Part shown: piece after piece, positions 51,007 to 57,105 of the stretch
Layout: the number at the start of each line of letters is the position of its first letter
How positions within the stretch are numbered: position 1 is the first letter of the stretch
Assembly: GCF_016904945.1 (NCBI RefSeq)
Contig: NZ_JADIKF010000038.1
Location: 540,241-604,240, forward strand
DNA from: Dyella mobilis
GTDB lineage: Bacteria > Pseudomonadota > Gammaproteobacteria > Xanthomonadales > Rhodanobacteraceae
Direction: 5' to 3'
Length of the DNA: 64,000 bases
Notes under the pieces: model-generated
What the model saw: only the letters and a program-made list of their open reading frames with translations
What the model was told of the DNA's origin: nothing
Database searches by the model: none
Made by a program: the position numbers and the translations under genes

Positions 51007-52602
51007 TCATTCCGCCTGCTTGATCCGTTCCCAGGTAAGTTCAAAGCGCGCCAGGTATTTGCGCAGGCGGTCCGCATCATTGGTGGACGCGCGGCGTTGG
51101 CGAGATGCAGCGAACAAGGTGCGGCCGGCTTCCGACAGCGAACGTGCCCTTCGGCAAATGGCGATCACGTCGCGCAACTGGGCGTGATCGAAGCGATCGA
51201 TCTCCTGCAGCCGGTCGCCCAGCAGTTCCCGCAATGGCGCGTCTTCCTGCTTTCCGGGGGCGCCCCACAGGCGTTGCAGTCGCCGGATTTCCTCCTCGAC
51301 GGTTTCCACGCGGATGCGCCCGGAGGCGGACAAGGTGGCCATGCGGGTCACCGATGCGCCAAGGTCGCGGAAGTTGCCTTTCCAGCTCGCCTCCACTGAA
51401 GTCGCGAAGGCCAGAAAGCGATCGCGCGCCTCGCGATTGAATGTCACCCGGCGCTGACTGGCCTTGGCAAATTTGTCCAGTTCGAAATCGAGGTTGGGTT
51501 CGATATCTTCGTGGCGATCGGCCAGGCCCGGCAGCTCGAAGGTCCACAGATTGAGGCGTGCATAGAGGTCGTCCCGAAATCCGCCGTCTTCCACGCGCCG
51601 CCCCAGATCGCGGTTGGTGCCGGCGATGAGTTGGAAATCGCTCTGCACTTCTTTGTCGCTCCCCACCGGAAGAAACCGCCTTTCTTCCAGTGCCCGCAGC
51701 AGCATCGCCTGCTCGTCGGCACCGAGTTCGCCGATTTCATCGAGGAACAGCAATCCTTTGTTGGCCGAGCGCAGCAAGCCGGCGCGTTCATTCGCCGCAC
51801 CCGTGTAGGCTCCTTTGACGTGCCCGAACAGTGCGCTCATGGCGCCGTCGCCGCGCAAGGTGGCGCAGTTCACCTCGACAAAATTGCCGGGCAGCTGGTG
51901 GCGCAATTTCTTCAATTCGAAGATTCGCCTGGCGAGCTGGCTTTTGCCTGCGCCGGTAGGCCCCATCAGCAGCATGGGTGCGGCCGAGCGGATGGCCACC
52001 GTTTCGATCTGCTCGATCATCCCGTTGAATGCCGCGTTGCGCGTGGCAATGCCGCTTTTGAGGTAAGCGCGGTCTTCCTGTTGCTCGCGCTCGAATCGTT
52101 CGGCGATCCGGTCGTATTTGGATAGATCCAGGTCGATGATATTGAAGCTGCCGCTGACGCCTTCGCGCTGTTTGCGTGGCGGCGAGGTCTGCAGCAGGCG
52201 GGCAGGGAAATAGTGGCTTTCCGTGAGCAGGAACAGACAGATCTGCGTCACGTGCGTACCGGTGGTGATGTGGATGTAGTAATCCTCGGCCTCGGTATCG
52301 AACGGATAGCTGCGGCTGAATTCATGCAGCACCGAATACACCGATTCGAAATCCCACGGGTCTCCGATATAGGTGTCGCGCAACTCCACCTGAGTTTCCG
52401 GTGACACCTGCGCGATATCGGCTTGCACCTGGCGGGCCAGGTCGCCGTAGCGCCGGCAGTCCGCCAGCAGTTCGAGGCGACTTATCAGAAAGTCCTCGTG
52501 CATGCCCAGCGCGACGGAGGGCCGCCATTTCTCCCACCGTCCGGCGCTGTGGCCGGCATCCAGCTGGGTGCCGAGGAATCCGATCACGACTTTGGGTTTC
52601 AT
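51007..52602 (-). CDS. rtcR: RtcR, CARF-domain sigma-54 activator of the RNA repair operon
   Basis: The ATG at 52602 (MKPKVVIGFLGTQLD) gives 531 residues, the size of E. coli RtcR; the frame is open far upstream but that part is antisense to rsr. The N-terminal ~180 residues form the RtcR/CARF sensor (YYIHITTGTHVTQICLFLL) that in known homologues binds RNA-derived ligands. The AAA+ domain has Walker A GPTGAGKSQ, a GAYTGA loop (variant of GAFTGA that contacts sigma-54), Walker B LLFLDEIGEL and the Arg finger region DDLYARLNLW. A C-terminal helix-turn-helix region ends the protein. It is divergent from rsr-RNA-rtcBA, 171 bases away, and should activate the sigma-54 promoter at 52729. Confidence 0.95.
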   Translation of the reverse strand: MKPKVVIGFLGTQLDAGHSAGRWEKWRPSVALGMHEDFLISRLELLADCRRYGDLARQVQADIAQVSPETQVELRDTYIGDPWDFESVYSVLHEFSRSYPFDTEAEDYYIHITTGTHVTQICLFLLTESHYFPARLLQTSPPRKQREGVSGSFNIIDLDLSKYDRIAERFEREQQEDRAYLKSGIATRNAAFNGMIEQIETVAIRSAAPMLLMGPTGAGKSQLARRIFELKKLRHQLPGNFVEVNCATLRGDGAMSALFGHVKGAYTGAANERAGLLRSANKGLLFLDEIGELGADEQAMLLRALEERRFLPVGSDKEVQSDFQLIAGTNRDLGRRVEDGGFRDDLYARLNLWTFELPGLADRHEDIEPNLDFELDKFAKASQRRVTFNREARDRFLAFATSVEASWKGNFRDLGASVTRMATLSASGRIRVETVEEEIRRLQRLWGAPGKQEDAPLRELLGDRLQEIDRFDHAQLRDVIAICRRARSLSEAGRTLFAASRQRRASTNDADRLRKYLARFELTWERIKQAE

Positions 52603-52728: not shown

Positions 52729-52744
52729 TGGCACGACAACTGCA
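52729..52744 (+). promoter_or_regulatory. Sigma-54 (-24/-12) promoter of rsr-rtcBA
   Basis: TGGCACGACAACTGCA matches the sigma-54 consensus TGGCACGNNNNTTGCA at all fixed positions except one (C for T just before TGC). GG is at 52730-52731 and GC at 52742-52743 with the required spacing. It lies 30 bases before the rsr start, so transcription would start about 18 bases upstream of the ATG. RtcR binding sites should lie in the AT-rich 52603-52720 segment. Confidence 0.9.
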
Positions 52745-52773: not shown

Positions 52774-54327
52774 ATGGTCAACACCCAACTTTTCGCCAGT
52801 TCGCGCGGCCGGATGGTTCCGGCGGCAGAGGTCCGCAACGAAGCGGGCGGCGCGGCCTACCAGCGTTCCGCCGAGGCGGAGCTGGCGTTGTGCGCGGCAA
52901 CCGGATGTTTCAACGGCATCTTCTATAGCGATGCCGCAACGCAGTTGTCGCAGGTCCTCGCCGCTTGCCGGAGGGTGTCGCCCGCTTACGTGGCCCGCAC
53001 GGCGCTGTATGCGCGCCGCACGGCCTACATGAAAGACATGCCGGCTCTTTTGCTGGCATACCTCGCCGGGTGCGACGGGGAGCTGCTGGAAAAGGTGTTC
53101 GACCGGGTCATCGACAACGGACGCATGCTTCGCAACTTCGTGCAGATCCTGCGTAGCGGCGTGACAGGACGCAAATCGCTCGGTACGCGGCCCAAGCGTC
53201 TGGTTCAGCGCTGGCTGGAAAACGCATCGGTTGATGCGGTGTTGAGTGCGGCGATCGGCGAAAAGCCGTCCCTGGCCGATGTGATTCGCATGGTGCATCC
53301 CAAGCCCGCCGATGCAGAACGCGCAGCGTTGTATGCGTGGCTGATCGGCAGGCCTTGCGACGCGGCGAAGTTGCCGGCGAAGGTGCGCGAGCTGGAAGCG
53401 TTCAAGCAACAGCCGGGCGAGGCGGTGCCGGATCTGCCGTTCCAGTACCTGACCGCGCTGCCGTTGCAGGCGTCGCATTGGAAGGCTATCGCTTTGCGTG
53501 CTTCGTGGCAGACCACGCGCATGAATTTGAATGCGTTCGGGCGCCACGGCGTGTTCGAGGATGCAGCGCTTACGCAGAGCATCGTCGAACGCCTGCGCGA
53601 TGCGGAAGCGATCCGGCGTGCGCGTGTCTTTCCGTATCAGCTGATGGCGGCTTTCCGGTCGGTTTCCAGAGATATGCCGCCGGCTATCGCGGAAGCGTTG
53701 CAGGACGCCATGGAGGTGGCTACCCGCAACGTGCCCAAGGTAGACGGCAACGTGGTGGTGGCGGTGGACGTGTCCGGTTCGATGGGTTCTGCGCTGACCG
53801 GATTCCGGCGCGGGGCCACCTCGGCGGTGCGCTGTGTCGACGTGGCGGCGCTGTTGGCTGCCTGCCTGAAGCGGGTCAATCCGCAGACGCGGATCATTCC
53901 GTTCGCCGAAGCCGTGCGCGATTGCCGCGTGAATCCGCGTGACAGCGTGATGACGCAGGCGGCGCAGCTGGCCGGTCTGCTCGGTGGCGGTACCGCGGTA
54001 AGCGCAGCGTTGACCGAATTGAACCGGCAGCGCAGCGAAGTGGATCTGCTGGTGCTGGTGTCGGACAACCAGAGTTGGGTGGACACGCGTACCAGCGGTG
54101 GCAGCGAAAGCATGCGGCAGTGGGCGGTATTGAAGTCGCGTTGTCCGCAGGCGCGCATGGTCTGCATCGACCTGCAGCCATACGCAACCAGCCAGACCGT
54201 GCAGACGCAGGATGTGTTGCACGTCGGCGGCTTTAGCGACGCGGTGTTCGATTTATTGGCTGGCGTGGCAACCGAAGGAACGGAAACCCGCAGCTGGGTG
54301 GAGCGCATCGAGGCGATGGCGCTCTGA
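52774..54327 (+). CDS. rsr: Rsr, bacterial Ro60 (TROVE domain) Y RNA-binding protein
   Basis: This 517-residue protein starts MVNTQLFASSRGRMVPA with AAGGAGA upstream. The first ~330 residues are the TROVE HEAT-repeat ring (YMKDMPALLLAYLAGCDGELLEKVF, RMLRNFVQILRSGVTGRKSLG, KRLVQRWL, FPYQLMAAF) that in Ro60 encloses the ends of misfolded RNAs and binds Y RNA outside. The last ~180 residues are a vWA domain with an intact MIDAS motif (VDVSGSMGS), the Thr site GGGTAVSAAL and the Asp site VLVSDNQSW. In Deinococcus and Salmonella, Rsr with Y RNA guides RNA quality control with PNPase. Here it is the first gene of the sigma-54 operon with three Y-like RNAs and rtcBA. Confidence 0.95.
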   Translation: MVNTQLFASSRGRMVPAAEVRNEAGGAAYQRSAEAELALCAATGCFNGIFYSDAATQLSQVLAACRRVSPAYVARTALYARRTAYMKDMPALLLAYLAGCDGELLEKVFDRVIDNGRMLRNFVQILRSGVTGRKSLGTRPKRLVQRWLENASVDAVLSAAIGEKPSLADVIRMVHPKPADAERAALYAWLIGRPCDAAKLPAKVRELEAFKQQPGEAVPDLPFQYLTALPLQASHWKAIALRASWQTTRMNLNAFGRHGVFEDAALTQSIVERLRDAEAIRRARVFPYQLMAAFRSVSRDMPPAIAEALQDAMEVATRNVPKVDGNVVVAVDVSGSMGSALTGFRRGATSAVRCVDVAALLAACLKRVNPQTRIIPFAEAVRDCRVNPRDSVMTQAAQLAGLLGGGTAVSAALTELNRQRSEVDLLVLVSDNQSWVDTRTSGGSESMRQWAVLKSRCPQARMVCIDLQPYATSQTVQTQDVLHVGGFSDAVFDLLAGVATEGTETRSWVERIEAMAL

Positions 54328-54336
54328 AACGTCCTT

Positions 54337-54360
54337 CCCCGGCAGGAGTGCCTGCCGGGG
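54337..54360 (+). other. Perfect 10-bp GC hairpin after rsr
   Basis: CCCCGGCAGG (54337-54346) pairs fully with CCTGCCGGGG (54351-54360) around an AGTG loop, 10 bases after the rsr stop. No T run follows, so it is not a standard terminator. It may protect or separate the rsr mRNA from the structured RNAs, or attenuate transcription. Confidence 0.7.
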
Positions 54361-54367
54361 TTGGGCC

Positions 54368-54453
54368 AGCGGAGTAAGGCGAATGCGCGAGGGACTACCT
54401 GGATCTCGCCGGTTCGAACCCGGCATCTCTCGCAAGGTTGTCGCCTTGCCGCT
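54368..54453 (+). ncRNA. Y-like RNA 1 with tRNA-like T-arm module
   Basis: The ends form a helix with a bulge: AGCGG-(AGT)-AAGGCGA (54368-54382) pairs with TCGCCTT-(G)-CCGCT (54441-54453), like the bulged end-helix of Y RNAs to which Ro binds. Inside, GCGAGGGA (54387-54394) pairs with TCTCTCGC (54426-54433) as an acceptor-like stem. Next to it is a perfect T-arm: GCCGG, loop TTCGAAC, CCGGC (54408-54424). The 13 bases between them (CTACCTGGATCTC) contain a GG as in a D-loop. An anticodon arm is missing. Boundaries are those of the helix; the transcript may be longer. Function inferred from location between rsr and rtcB. Confidence 0.72.
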
Positions 54454-54476
54454 ACCGGAATGGCACAGGTTTGTTT

Positions 54477-54567
54477 TGCAGCGAATGCAGATGGAGTTAC
54501 TTGGTAAGCCTTCGGGCGAACGGGTTCGAGTCCCGCTTGCAAGACGACACGCTCGAATGTCGTTGCG
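54477..54567 (+). ncRNA. Y-like RNA 2 with tRNA-like module
   Basis: The T-arm CGGG-TTCGAGT-CCCG (54521-54535) is followed by CTTGCA, which can pair with TGCAG at 54486-54490 as a short acceptor-like stem. Between them, TTACTTGGTAAG resembles a D-arm with GG, and GCC-TTCG-GGC is a small extra hairpin. The outer ends TGCAGCGA (54477-54484) and TCGTTGCG (54560-54567) pair over 8 positions including wobbles. A competing hairpin ACGACA/TGTCGT (54544-54563) exists. The order (acceptor 5', D-like, T-arm, acceptor 3') is the same as in RNA 1. The fold is less certain than for its neighbours. Confidence 0.55.
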
Positions 54568-54627
54568 CAGGATGCTTCATCATTCTCGTCGCTGCATCTA
54601 TCGTGGGTTGGAAAAGTTTTTTGCGTC

Positions 54628-54762
54628 GTGGCGAATGCCAGTGGAACTACATGACTTCAGACGTCCCGTGTCGCGGGTTCGACTCCCGTCGATGCGATAG
54701 CTATCGCATCGTAGCTCAGTGGTAGAGCAGGGGTTTCACTAAAACCTAGTCGCCGCACTTTT
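54628..54762 (+). ncRNA. yrlA: YrlA-type Y RNA with circularly permuted tRNA-like module
   Basis: From 5' to 3' the RNA has an end helix GTG-GCGA (54628-54634) pairing with TCGC-(CG)-CAC (54750-54758) and a second helix AGTGGAAC (54640-54647) with GTTTCACT (54733-54740). The module between them holds a T-arm GCGGG-TTCGACT-CCCGT (54673-54689), a loop-capped 9-bp acceptor stem CGATGCGAT-AGCT-ATCGCATCG (54690-54711), a TA spacer and a canonical D-arm GCTC-AGTGGTA-GAGC (54714-54728). T-arm, closed acceptor and D-arm in this order are a circular permutation of tRNA, the described hallmark of bacterial YrlA RNAs that mimic tRNA. It ends in TTTT, 58 bases before the rtcB start. RtcB start and RBS lie outside it. 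Confidence 0.85.
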
Positions 54763-54820
54763 ATGATGGAAATGGACGGTCCCCGCGGTCGGGCACTGTC
54801 TCAGGGCAAGGAGAAGGACC

Positions 54821-56038
54821 GTGAGCAAGAGTTATCAGGTGATCAACGAGCCGGGCGCCGTGCCGATCAAGGCGTGGACCCATGGCGTGCCGCTCGAGGA
54901 CGCCGCGCGCGAACAGCTGATCAATATCGCCAAGCTGCCGTTCATCCATCGCTGGGTGGCGGTCATGCCCGACGTGCATTTGGGGAAGGGTGCGACGGTG
55001 GGTTCGGTCGTGCCGACGGTGGGCGCGATCGTGCCGGCGGCCGTGGGTGTGGACATCGGCTGCGGCATGATCGCCACGCGCACCACGCTGACCGGCGCGG
55101 ACCTCCCGGACAACCTCGCTGGCATCCGCTCGGCGATCGAGCGCGCGGTTCCGCATGGGCGCACCGTCGGCAAACGCGACAAGGGGGCCTGGGATACGCC
55201 GCCTGGTGCGGCGATCGATGGGTGGTCCGCGCTGGAAGAGGATTTTCGCCGCATCACGGCGAAGTATCCCAAGCTGGCGCGTACCAATAACCTGCATCAC
55301 CTGGGAACGCTTGGTACGGGCAATCACTTCGTGGAGGTTTGTCTGGACGAAGAGGATCGCGTGTGGTTCATGCTGCACTCCGGTTCGCGCGGTGTCGGCA
55401 ATGCGATCGGCAACCACTTCATCGAGCTGGCCAAGCAGGACATGCGCCGCTGGATGATCAATCTGCCGGATCAGGACCTTGCGTATCTGCCGGAAGGAAG
55501 CGAGCACTTCGACGACTATGTATTTGCGGTGGAGTGGGCGCAGCGGTTTGCCCGCACCAATCGCGCCATCATGATGCAGCACGTCGTCGATGCCGTGCGG
55601 CGCGTGATCACTAAGCCGTTCGAGGCCTGGGCCGAAGCGGTGAACTGCCATCACAACTACGTGAGCCGCGAGCATCACTACGGCAAGAATGTGCTGGTAA
55701 CCCGTAAGGGCGCGGTAAGCGCGAAGGCCGGCGAGCTGGGCATCATTCCCGGCAGCATGGGAGCGAAGAGCTTTATCGTGCGCGGCCTCGGCAACGAGGA
55801 AAGCTTCCACAGCTGCAGCCACGGTGCGGGGCGCGTGATGAGTCGTACGGAAGCGCGCAAGCGCATCACCCTCGACCAACACAAGCAGGCGACCGCACAC
55901 GTGGAATGCCGCAAGGACGCGGAGGTTATCGACGAATCGCCGGCGGCGTACAAGTCGATTGACGCGGTGATGGCGGCTCAGCAGGATCTGGTCGAGATCG
56001 TTCACACGCTGCGCCAGGTGGTCTGCGTAAAGGGATGA
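54821..56038 (+). CDS. rtcB: RtcB, GTP-dependent RNA ligase
   Basis: The GTG at 54821 has AAGGAGAAGGA upstream and yields 405 residues, as in E. coli RtcB. It joins 3'-phosphate or 2',3'-cyclic phosphate ends to 5'-OH ends with GTP and Mn2+. Metal and catalytic motifs are present: MPDVHLGKGATVGSV, VDIGCGM (metal Cys), LGTGNHFVEV, HSGSRGVGN, CHHNYV, and CSHGAGR, whose His is guanylylated. The protein is complete with no odd residues seen. It follows the three Y-like RNAs, and its likely substrates are tRNAs or other RNAs cut by toxins, possibly including the neighbouring RNAs. Confidence 0.95.
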   Translation: MSKSYQVINEPGAVPIKAWTHGVPLEDAAREQLINIAKLPFIHRWVAVMPDVHLGKGATVGSVVPTVGAIVPAAVGVDIGCGMIATRTTLTGADLPDNLAGIRSAIERAVPHGRTVGKRDKGAWDTPPGAAIDGWSALEEDFRRITAKYPKLARTNNLHHLGTLGTGNHFVEVCLDEEDRVWFMLHSGSRGVGNAIGNHFIELAKQDMRRWMINLPDQDLAYLPEGSEHFDDYVFAVEWAQRFARTNRAIMMQHVVDAVRRVITKPFEAWAEAVNCHHNYVSREHHYGKNVLVTRKGAVSAKAGELGIIPGSMGAKSFIVRGLGNEESFHSCSHGAGRVMSRTEARKRITLDQHKQATAHVECRKDAEVIDESPAAYKSIDAVMAAQQDLVEIVHTLRQVVCVKG

Positions 56039-56091
56039 GGCATGCAGGCGATGGCCTGCATGCCCGTTGGAACAGAGGAAAGGGGAAACAC

Positions 56092-57105
56092 GTGATCGAG
56101 ATCGATGGCGCGCAAGGCGGCGGTCAGCTGCTGCGCACCGCTTTGACATTGAGCATGGTGACGGGGGAGCCCTTCACCATGACGGGCATTCGCGCCGGAC
56201 GCAGTCGTCCGGGGCTGATGCGACAGCACCTGACGGCGGTCGACGCCGCGCGGCAGGTGAGCCATGCGAGTGTCGCCGGAGCCGAGCCTGGTTCGCGGCA
56301 ACTGGTCTTTACGCCGGGTGGTGTGCGTGCGGGAGATTTCCAGTTTGCGATCGGTACGGCCGGTTCGACCACCCTGGTTCTGCAGACGATCCTGCCTGCG
56401 CTGTGCCTTGCGGATGGCCCGTCAACCATCCGCCTGGAAGGCGGTACGCACAACCCGCTGGCGCCGCCCGCGAACTTCCTGACCGATACGTTCGCACCGC
56501 TGCTGGCGAAGATGGGCACAAGTACGGACATTCGCCTGGAGCGTCACGGTTTCTATCCGGCCGGCGGCGGCGTGTTGCAGGTAAAGGTCGTGCCCGTATC
56601 CGCATTGCAGCCGTTGCATCTGGAGGAACGTGGCGCATTGCAGGCGGTATCGGCGCGCGCGCTGATTTCCGGCATTCACGACAGTGTTGCCCAGCGCGAG
56701 TTGAATGTCGTTGCGCGCAGGCTGCAGTTGCCGCCGGACGCGTTGGAATTGCGCGCCATCAGCCAGCCGCTCGGCCCGGGCAACGCATTGAGCGTGCGGG
56801 TGGCTTGCGAACACCTGGTCGAAACATTCACCGCATTCGGCGAACGTGGTGTGAGTGCCGAGCAGGTCGCCGAGCGCGTGTGCGACGAAGCGCAGGCCTA
56901 TCTCAAGGCGGATGTGGCGACGGGGGTGCATTTGGCCGATCAGCTGCTGTTGCCGATGGCGCTGGCCGGGGGCGGATCGTTTACCACGATGGCACCCTCC
57001 GATCATTCCTACAGCAATGCGGCGCTCATCCAGAAATTCGTGGCGGTCGATATCGACTACGAGGAACTGGGAGCAAACCGCTGGCGCTGCGTCATACGGA
57101 AATAG
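56092..57105 (+). CDS. rtcA: RtcA, RNA 3'-terminal phosphate cyclase
   Basis: I chose the GTG at 56092 (VIEIDGAQGGGQLL) because AGGAAAGGGG lies just upstream and the length (337) matches E. coli RtcA; the frame is open from 56035. The enzyme converts RNA 3'-phosphates to 2',3'-cyclic phosphates with ATP. Conserved motifs are GIRAGRSRPGLMRQHL, GTAGSTTLVLQTILPAL, GGTHNPLAPPANF, RHGFYPAGGG and HLADQLLLPMAL, which contains the His that becomes adenylylated. The N-terminal motif reads DGAQGGGQ, whereas E. coli has DGAQGEGGGQ: the two residues Glu-Gly are missing. This may alter activity. It ends 6 bases before the convergent lysR gene. Confidence 0.94.
   Translation: MIEIDGAQGGGQLLRTALTLSMVTGEPFTMTGIRAGRSRPGLMRQHLTAVDAARQVSHASVAGAEPGSRQLVFTPGGVRAGDFQFAIGTAGSTTLVLQTILPALCLADGPSTIRLEGGTHNPLAPPANFLTDTFAPLLAKMGTSTDIRLERHGFYPAGGGVLQVKVVPVSALQPLHLEERGALQAVSARALISGIHDSVAQRELNVVARRLQLPPDALELRAISQPLGPGNALSVRVACEHLVETFTAFGERGVSAEQVAERVCDEAQAYLKADVATGVHLADQLLLPMALAGGGSFTTMAPSDHSYSNAALIQKFVAVDIDYEELGANRWRCVIRK

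Follow-up and report, generated by a model that had tools for sequence, protein, structure and literature searches.

The window, by which we mean the whole stretch of 64,000 nucleotides of Dyella mobilis DNA that was analysed, contains the genes rtcR, rsr, rtcB and rtcA, and the gap of 493 nt between rsr (ending at 54327) and rtcB (starting at 54821) holds three tandem Y RNA-like units, each of them closed by a Y stem CGAATG...TCG. The genes and features are as follows.

51007 to 52602, minus strand: rtcR, CARF-type sigma54 activator (NCBIfam NF038308 818.5 bits, cut-off 650; Pfam RtcR PF06956)
52729 to 52744, plus strand: sigma54 -24/-12-like box TGGCACGACAACTGCA, one mismatch, about 30 nt before rsr
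52774 to 54327, plus strand: rsr, Ro60-related protein (Pfam vWA_Ro60 and TROVE, both over cut-off)
54337 to 54360, plus strand: hairpin of 10 bp directly 3' of the rsr stop, with no terminator-like T run
54374 to 54449, plus strand: unit 1, with Y stem and a T-arm (54408-54424) adjoining the upper Y stem, without D-arm or separate acceptor hairpin
54477 to 54596, plus strand: unit 2, with GG (54503-54504), UUCG-capped hairpin (54508-54517), T-arm (54520-54536) and an acceptor-like hairpin of 5 bp, without D-arm
54628 to 54756, plus strand: unit 3, YrlA with what is almost certainly a complete permuted tRNA
54821 to 56038, plus strand: rtcB, RNA ligase (Pfam RtcB 1.7e-130; GTG start)
56035 to 57105, plus strand: rtcA, RNA 3'-phosphate cyclase (NCBIfam over cut-off; Pfam RTC)

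The rtcR gene is divergent from rsr-rtcB-rtcA and its product is the predicted activator of the RNA-repair operon. In a scan of the 64-kb window alone the sigma54-type pattern is not above chance; among relatives, 47 of 88 loci have a similar box in the 180 nt that precede rsr, versus 0 of 88 control stretches inside rsr, and in this comparison L010, L016, L017, L022 and L025 (opposite strand) were entered as misses. With its divergent rtcR, putative sigma54-type promoter, rtcB and rtcA, the setting is recognizable as the known RtcR/sigma54 RNA-repair operon. The NCBIfam Rsr model gives the rsr product 76.9 bits, far under its cut-off of 900. The sequence-only reading had found no protein gene in the gap; in the list of mechanical open reading frames some cross the gap, and none in that list had support as a gene. 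Scanning the gap for intrinsic terminators and sigma70 promoters likewise gave none.

The Salmonella rsr-yrlBA-rtcBA operon is similar in having rsr, Y RNAs and rtcBA together with a divergent rtcR and a sigma54 promoter (passages of PMC7790460 and PMC9879122), but the window has three Y RNAs in place of two and the last of these carries an anticodon arm. Tandem Y RNAs at rsr and the tRNA mimicry of YrlA are already known, and the array alone is ordinary.

As a separate observation, 14 of the 18 loci listed, window included, have a hairpin of at least 10 bp in the first 110 nt past rsr as a raw count, and its sequence changes between loci; perhaps it guards the mRNA 3' end or marks a processing site that separates rsr from the Y RNAs.

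Detection of the three units

The three T-arms first noticed from the letters of the sequence, with T-loops at 54413, 54525 and 54678, are present, two of them being perfect (unit 1 with 5/5 pairs, unit 3 with 5/5 including one G-U) and the middle one, that of unit 2, having 4/5 pairs with one A-C mismatch. The larger units with paired ends that had been proposed around them are borne out by the Y stem that closes all three. Perfect T-arms are rare: the two strands of the 64 kb together have 4, of which 2 fall inside the rsr-rtcB gap, and 20 first-order Markov windows contain a mean of 0.9 and a maximum of 2.

Against the Rfam YrlA model RF02553 (cmscan), units 1, 2 and 3 score 32.5, 26.8 and 68.9 bits, and none thus reaches the gathering score of 69, unit 3 falling short by 0.1 bit. 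All three units resemble YrlA, then, with none over the cut-off. The Rfam tRNA model RF00005 matches the genome at 46 places (E<=0.001), none of them at unit 3. The Rfam model expects a D-arm, which units 1 and 2 do not have, and these two are named Y RNA-like and not YrlA. In a scan of the whole genome the 26.8 bits of unit 2 are barely above matches at ordinary tRNA genes (25.6 and 25.1 bits), and weak YrlA matches occur in 13 of 14 control genomes, so Rfam alone is no proof of unit 2. Further YrlA copies elsewhere in the genome were considered and rejected, as the four weak Rfam matches concerned (23.4-25.6 bits) overlap ordinary tRNA genes.

A covariance model built from relatives, R1, whose training set includes unit 3 and excludes units 1 and 2, is a more sensitive model for such units and gives 29.4 bits (E 5e-6) for unit 1, 45.2 bits (E 2e-10) for unit 2 and 112.3 bits (E 6e-29) for unit 3, the next-best match in the window having 11 bits. 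Single-sequence folding energies are unremarkable (z of -0.8, -1.7 and -1.4), and the evidence pointing to the units is comparative and does not come from single-sequence folding. The Y stem covaries in relatives, both among units like unit 3 and among those like unit 1, and the paired segments are conserved and covary in relatives. The central proposal of the sequence-only reading, that the rsr-rtcB interval of an RtcR operon holds three Y RNA-like RNAs with tRNA-mimicking modules, is upheld by the YrlA and R1 scores and by the covariation in relatives. Its account of the architectures needs revision: the units do differ from one another, but unit 3 is not an ordinary permuted YrlA, since it has a complete anticodon arm, and the description of units 1 and 2 as unpermuted and lacking an anticodon arm misses that they have no D-arm and instead a GG after CUAC, and that unit 2 has a UUCG-capped hairpin.

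Unit 3 as a permuted cloverleaf

Unit 3 alone has a T-arm, a closed acceptor and a D-arm in permuted order. Its parts are given below in tRNA position numbering.

54653 to 54667, plus strand: anticodon hairpin, GAC (29-31), loop TTCAGAC (32-38, anticodon CAG), GTC (39-41) and CC (42-43)
54673 to 54689, plus strand: T-arm, preceded by a 5-nt variable loop GTGTC
54690 to 54711, plus strand: acceptor stem closed by a loop, CGATGCG ... CGCATCG, 7/7 pairs
54714 to 54731, plus strand: D-arm (54714-54728), position 26 (54729) and GG of positions 27-28 (54730-54731)

The GG at 54730-54731 pairs with the CC at 54666-54667, and unit 3 thereby holds every arm of a tRNA, namely a 7-bp acceptor, a D-arm, an anticodon arm with 5 bp and a 7-nt loop, and a T-arm, the chain being opened between positions 28 and 29 relative to tRNA and the Y stem inserted there. 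We regard this anatomy, a permuted cloverleaf with an anticodon arm, as very nearly certain from the pairing.

YrlA as modelled in Rfam and unit 3 have in common the Y stem, the CUAC, the T-arm, the closed acceptor hairpin, the D-arm, the adjacency to rsr and the permutation, but in the Rfam consensus CUAC and the T-arm are 7 nt apart and an anticodon arm is absent, whereas unit 3 has an arm of 5 bp and 7 nt made from two strands. In passages of a review, the mimicry of YrlA is described as comprising the D, T and acceptor arms only (PMC8394870), and the crystal structure of Salmonella YrlA is reported to superpose on tRNA with a circular permutation (ARTEMIS, passages of PMC11472068). An anticodon arm of YrlA is not mentioned in the passages of the literature covered, nor in the titles and first lines of abstracts that were screened, a selection outside which the primary YrlA papers lie (Chen et al. 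2014, Wang et al. 2018). A tRNA fold within a non-tRNA is likewise seen in tmRNA and in the 3' tRNA-like structures of plant viruses (passages of PMC11472068), but unlike these mimics unit 3 is permuted, has a closed acceptor and carries an anticodon loop of ordinary appearance.

Anticodon arms, break points and loops in relatives

The relatives comprise 89 loci in all, and of 458 confirmed genome-contig stretches the best 80 were covered. Modules were collected by Y core, T-arm, acceptor hairpin and D-arm with the anticodon region left unused, which yielded 118 modules in 74 of the 89 loci; L010, L016, L017, L022 and L025, read here on the opposite strand, contributed none. CUAC is separated from the T-arm by 6-8 nt in 15 modules, by 14-17 nt in 17 and, in the 86 with an insert, by at least 18 nt. 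A perfect anticodon arm of 5 bp and 7 nt is formed by 75 of the 86 insert-bearing modules, by 2 of the 17 intermediate ones and by none of the 15 with short spacing, counting the best of variable loops of 4-6 nt and of breaks at 28|29 or 29|30, while decoy offsets given the same freedom reach 0-7 of 86. With the variable loop fixed at 5 nt all five pairs form in 62 of 118 modules, against 0-5 for 17 other settings. The inner 3 bp are formed in 63 modules, and both outer pairs, which require the distant strand, in 62 of these 63, whereas shuffling the distant strand among modules 5000 times gives a mean of 27.7 and a maximum of 41. The outer pairs are GG/CC in 29 cases and CG/CG in 28, with one each of GC/GC, CC/GG, CT/AG, CA/TG and CG/TG, and of the 75 perfect arms 72 have U33 and 69 have a purine at position 37. 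All of these counts come from module sequences that are related by descent and are not independent events, and from tests that are not tree-aware. In addition, the alignment A1 of 52 sequences was drawn from units already forming the anticodon stem, so counts for the two anticodon helices in it are circular; it omits 2 of 54 such units, one of L034 and one of L035, of 162 nt each. A break at 30|31 was tried as a further class (5 modules), and was judged to be chance with U33 in 0 of 5.

The arm recurs in other collections. In 16 further genome loci, 5 of them strand-turned, there are 21 modules in 12 loci, 14 with an insert, and 12 of these 14 have a perfect arm (decoys 0-1), with U33 in 10 of the 12. 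In nine plasmid and phage records the arm is perfect in 5 of 5 cases, decoys giving 0-1; in 31 viral contigs, which have 8 modules in 7 contigs, it is perfect in 5 of 6 cases, decoys giving 0. Both sets overlap in part with earlier collections. The arm is missing or imperfect in others, with 11 of the 86 insert modules lacking a perfect stem and 15 of the 118 modules lacking the insert, and it is therefore dispensable for being a YrlA.

Bases 15 and 48 of tRNA form the Levitt pair. In the 118 modules these positions are G15-C48 in 104, A15-U48 in 10, A-C in 2, and A-A and U-A in 1 each, so that 114 of 118 are G-C or A-U versus a maximum of 103 in 20,000 shuffles, and in the further loci 19 of 21 are G-C, 1 is A-U and 1 is U-A. 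Furthermore, U8 and A14 are invariant in the 118 modules. The conserved 15-48 pairing favours a tRNA-like three-dimensional core.

Six modules (L057, L061, L074, L077, L091 and L139) are permuted in another way, the chain being opened in the D-loop so that the halves of the D-stem lie at opposite ends (GCTC/GAGC, ACTC/GAGT, GCGC/GCGC; displaced controls 0-1), and in 4 of the 6 the anticodon arm is capped by 4 nt (GAAA, TCCG, GCAA, ATTT). The modules add to the natural circular permutations of the tRNA fold, which here are opened at two or more different sites.

By pattern the 89 loci contain 86 units with a D-arm (61 loci), 46 with a T-arm only (40 loci), 47 without a T-arm (39 loci) and 3 unclassed, where the T-arm-only class, being made by pattern, includes the misfiled L066 5757, which has a D-arm, as well as L065 and L091, which are D-loop-break or similar forms. 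A GG within 9 nt after CUAC is found in 44 of the 46 T-arm-only units (25.4 expected from shuffles), in 15 of the 86 D-arm units (36.0 expected) and in 14 of the 47 without a T-arm (12.8 expected), and we infer that this GG replaces the G18-G19 of the D-loop that docks on the T-loop. Where the gap from GG to the T-arm is at least 11 nt, it contains a hairpin in 20 of 20 cases (shuffled mean 8.8, maximum 14), and a closed stem of at least 5 bp directly follows the T-arm in 27 of 42 (shuffled mean 8.1, maximum 14). The short hairpin of unit 2, GCC-UUCG-GGC, stands at the place of an anticodon or variable arm, and unit 2 may be a reduced form of the D-loop-break permutation. For unit 1 an alignment of 6 sequences, itself and five relatives, has two-sided changes in all three helices, the upper stem being paired in only 73.8% of cells.

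Genomes with Rsr number 19 of 233 in the family, 10 of 398 drawn from the phylum and 5 of 369 drawn from the class, the genome of the window being included in each count. At least one unit lies 3' of rsr in 71 of the 89 loci, at least two in 57 and at least three in 31, the maximum being five, and several Betaproteobacteria have the order short unit, T-arm-only unit, full unit, which resembles the window. Between units 2 and 3 an extra Y stretch is present in L010 (same genus), L027 (Dyella) and L028 (Rhodanobacter), and the window seems to have lost it at 54597-54627; in the first two of these relatives it is a YrlA module, while in L028 it is degraded or divergent. L010 has a unit of the unit 2 type, a T-arm at the place of unit 1 and two YrlA modules, one with the anticodon GTC and the other pairing only with the 29|30 break and without U33. 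More tRNA-like YrlA RNAs are reportedly described for mycobacteria in the 2018 YrlA structure paper.

Perfect anticodon arms are likewise found beside Rsr genes in the viral contigs L113, L119, L126, L131 and L133, which are IMG/VR predictions and may include host contamination, and on plasmids of Rhizobium, Xanthomonas, Methylosinus and Shinella with the order rtcR-rsr-rtcB. As a side observation, the Myxococcus phage Mx1 (L138) has a TROVE/Rsr-like gene near an annotated tRNA-Gly and a peptidyl-tRNA hydrolase gene, and the module pattern search found no YrlA module in this record. For jumbo phages, the literature discusses TROVE proteins as platforms of RNA repair that have a partner resembling tRNA (passages of PMC7824862).

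In four close relatives, window included, the stem GG-GAC/GTC-CC of the unit 3 orthologues is unchanged, and the loops are TTCAGAC (window), CTGTCAC (L010), CTCATAA (L027) and ATCATAA (L028), with only U33 and A37 constant. The loop of unit 3 differs from that of the native tRNA-Leu(CAG), TTCAGGT, at 2 of 7 positions, and mimicry of this one tRNA is therefore imperfect. In a set of 86 loops from genomes, viral contigs and plasmids, 54 of them distinct, 35 equal one of the 43 distinct tRNA anticodon loops of the Dyella mobilis genome and 51 match none of them; counted as distinct loops, 11 of 54 equal a native loop versus a mean of 5.4 after column shuffling, with 12 of 5000 shuffles as high. 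Of 12 pairs of units within one array none shares an anticodon, although by chance alone no more than 0.7 would be expected to. The commonest anticodons among the 86 loops are CUU (11), GUU (8), GUC (7), UCU and AUG (6 each), and CAU, AUU and ACG (5 each). The tRNAs for Lys, Asn, Asp and Arg are classic targets of anticodon nucleases (PrrC, colicins E5 and D), and the overlap of the anticodons with these targets was noticed after the fact.

Two features of base composition may also be mentioned. U35 is present in 49 of the 86 loops and in 28 of the 54 distinct ones, a bias that was seen post hoc in sequences that share descent. A34, which is rare in bacterial tRNAs, is present in 24 of the 86, and the anticodons AUG, AUU and AUC resemble G34-to-A versions of the His, Asn and Asp anticodons.

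Possible roles of the tRNA-like heads

The putatively RtcR/sigma54-controlled operon rsr - Y1 - Y2 - Y3 - rtcB - rtcA would make three Y RNAs, corresponding to the three units, which would be expected to bind Rsr through their Y stems. Their heads copy a rising share of tRNA, Y1 the elbow only, Y2 the elbow with a mini-arm and a closed acceptor, and Y3 the complete cloverleaf, in which the anticodon stem is rebuilt from two separate strands and displays a 7-nt anticodon loop. Y3 should not be chargeable, because a loop connects its two acceptor ends. Upon tRNA cleavage and activation of RtcR, such Rsr-tethered, non-chargeable stand-ins for tRNA might then engage tRNA-binding enzymes, and the anticodon loop of Y3 could serve as a competitor or sacrificial substrate for anticodon-loop nucleases, beside repair by RtcB and RtcA. 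We give this reading of the heads as decoys or adaptors an about even chance overall; gene order, the three units, the permuted cloverleaf with its conservation, the covariation and the variability of the loops are evident from the sequences, and expression, Rsr binding and the decoy role are what we infer.

According to Hughes et al., RtcR has as ligands 5' tRNA fragments bearing a 2',3'-cyclic phosphate, and they propose that YrlA may be a competitive inhibitor of the anticodon nuclease (passages of PMC7790460); a YrlA with a real anticodon loop fits this decoy idea better than one without. In the same passages YrlA fragments were not detected in Salmonella, so YrlA is not necessarily cut, which speaks against the decoy reading. 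Against it count likewise the imperfect mimicry of tRNA-Leu(CAG), the 51 of 86 loops that match no native loop, the modules that do without a perfect arm, the lower share of U33 in the further loci (10 of 12) and the A34 of 24 of 86 loops. If most YrlA relatives near Rsr carry the anticodon arm, they would carry a copy of the very part of tRNA that anticodon nucleases cut; cuts in the anticodon region are also what RtcB is thought to repair, and if this is true the Ro60/Y RNA half of the operon would be linked to the ligase half. On a wider and tentative view, which we consider possible but doubtful, Rsr-linked Y RNA arrays in general would be tethered, non-chargeable tRNA surrogates, in which tRNA has been re-cut at 28|29, at 29|30 or in the D-loop with the fold and often a fast-changing loop kept, each copy presenting a chosen anticodon to nucleases of rivals, of phages or of the cell itself, and the phage copies acting in counter-defence.

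A different function, for which our estimate is equally tentative and below even, would make the heads RYPER-like effector handles that either gate the Rsr ring or hold PNPase, or some other ribonuclease, on Rsr; the anticodon arm would then do no more than stabilize the fold by continuous stacking, and its loop would have no target. Associations of Rsr and YrlA with PNPase in Salmonella and of Rsr and Y RNA with PNPase in Deinococcus have been reported (passages of PMC4987338 and PMC8394870), and the 15 of 118 modules without insert and the 4-nt caps in 4 of 6 D-loop-break relatives are in agreement with a handle; a structural arm, however, need not keep a 7-nt loop, U33 (72/75) and purine 37 (69/75), nor need its loops equal native tRNA loops more often than column shuffles do. 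That the Y RNAs are instead sentinels or substrates, Y3 being cut in its loop by an anticodon nuclease so that the 2',3'-cyclic phosphate end helps to activate RtcR and RtcB reseals the RNA, is suggested by their position in the operon and by the ligand chemistry of RtcR (passages of PMC7790460), but we find it improbable, since cutting Y3 would leave a 5' piece that consists largely of Y stem and is no tRNA 5' half, and since the Salmonella result on YrlA fragments, from the same source, counts against it as well.

A tRNA ancestry is plausible and the two kinds of break point might reflect insertion of tRNA pieces into Y RNA genes, but that the heads are functionless remnants of such events is very improbable in view of the anticodon-stem pairing and its pair changes across phyla and of the conserved 15-48 pair. 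There is hardly any chance that unit 3 is a real tRNA gene for tRNA-Leu CAG, as called by ARAGORN at 54621-54698: half of the acceptor hairpin and the whole D-arm (54714-54728) fall outside the called span, RF00005 has no match there, a native tRNA-Leu(CAG) is present elsewhere in the genome, and the acceptor strands are joined by a loop and leave no free acceptor end. The call was accordingly rejected, and the structure of unit 3 explains how it arose. ARAGORN was also run on computationally un-permuted modules, an earlier collection of 84 that missed short acceptors, and was set aside as a criterion, for it called 77 of the 84 a tRNA yet still 68 of 84 with the hairpin bases shuffled. False tRNAs like the call at 54621-54698 may sit in genome annotations.
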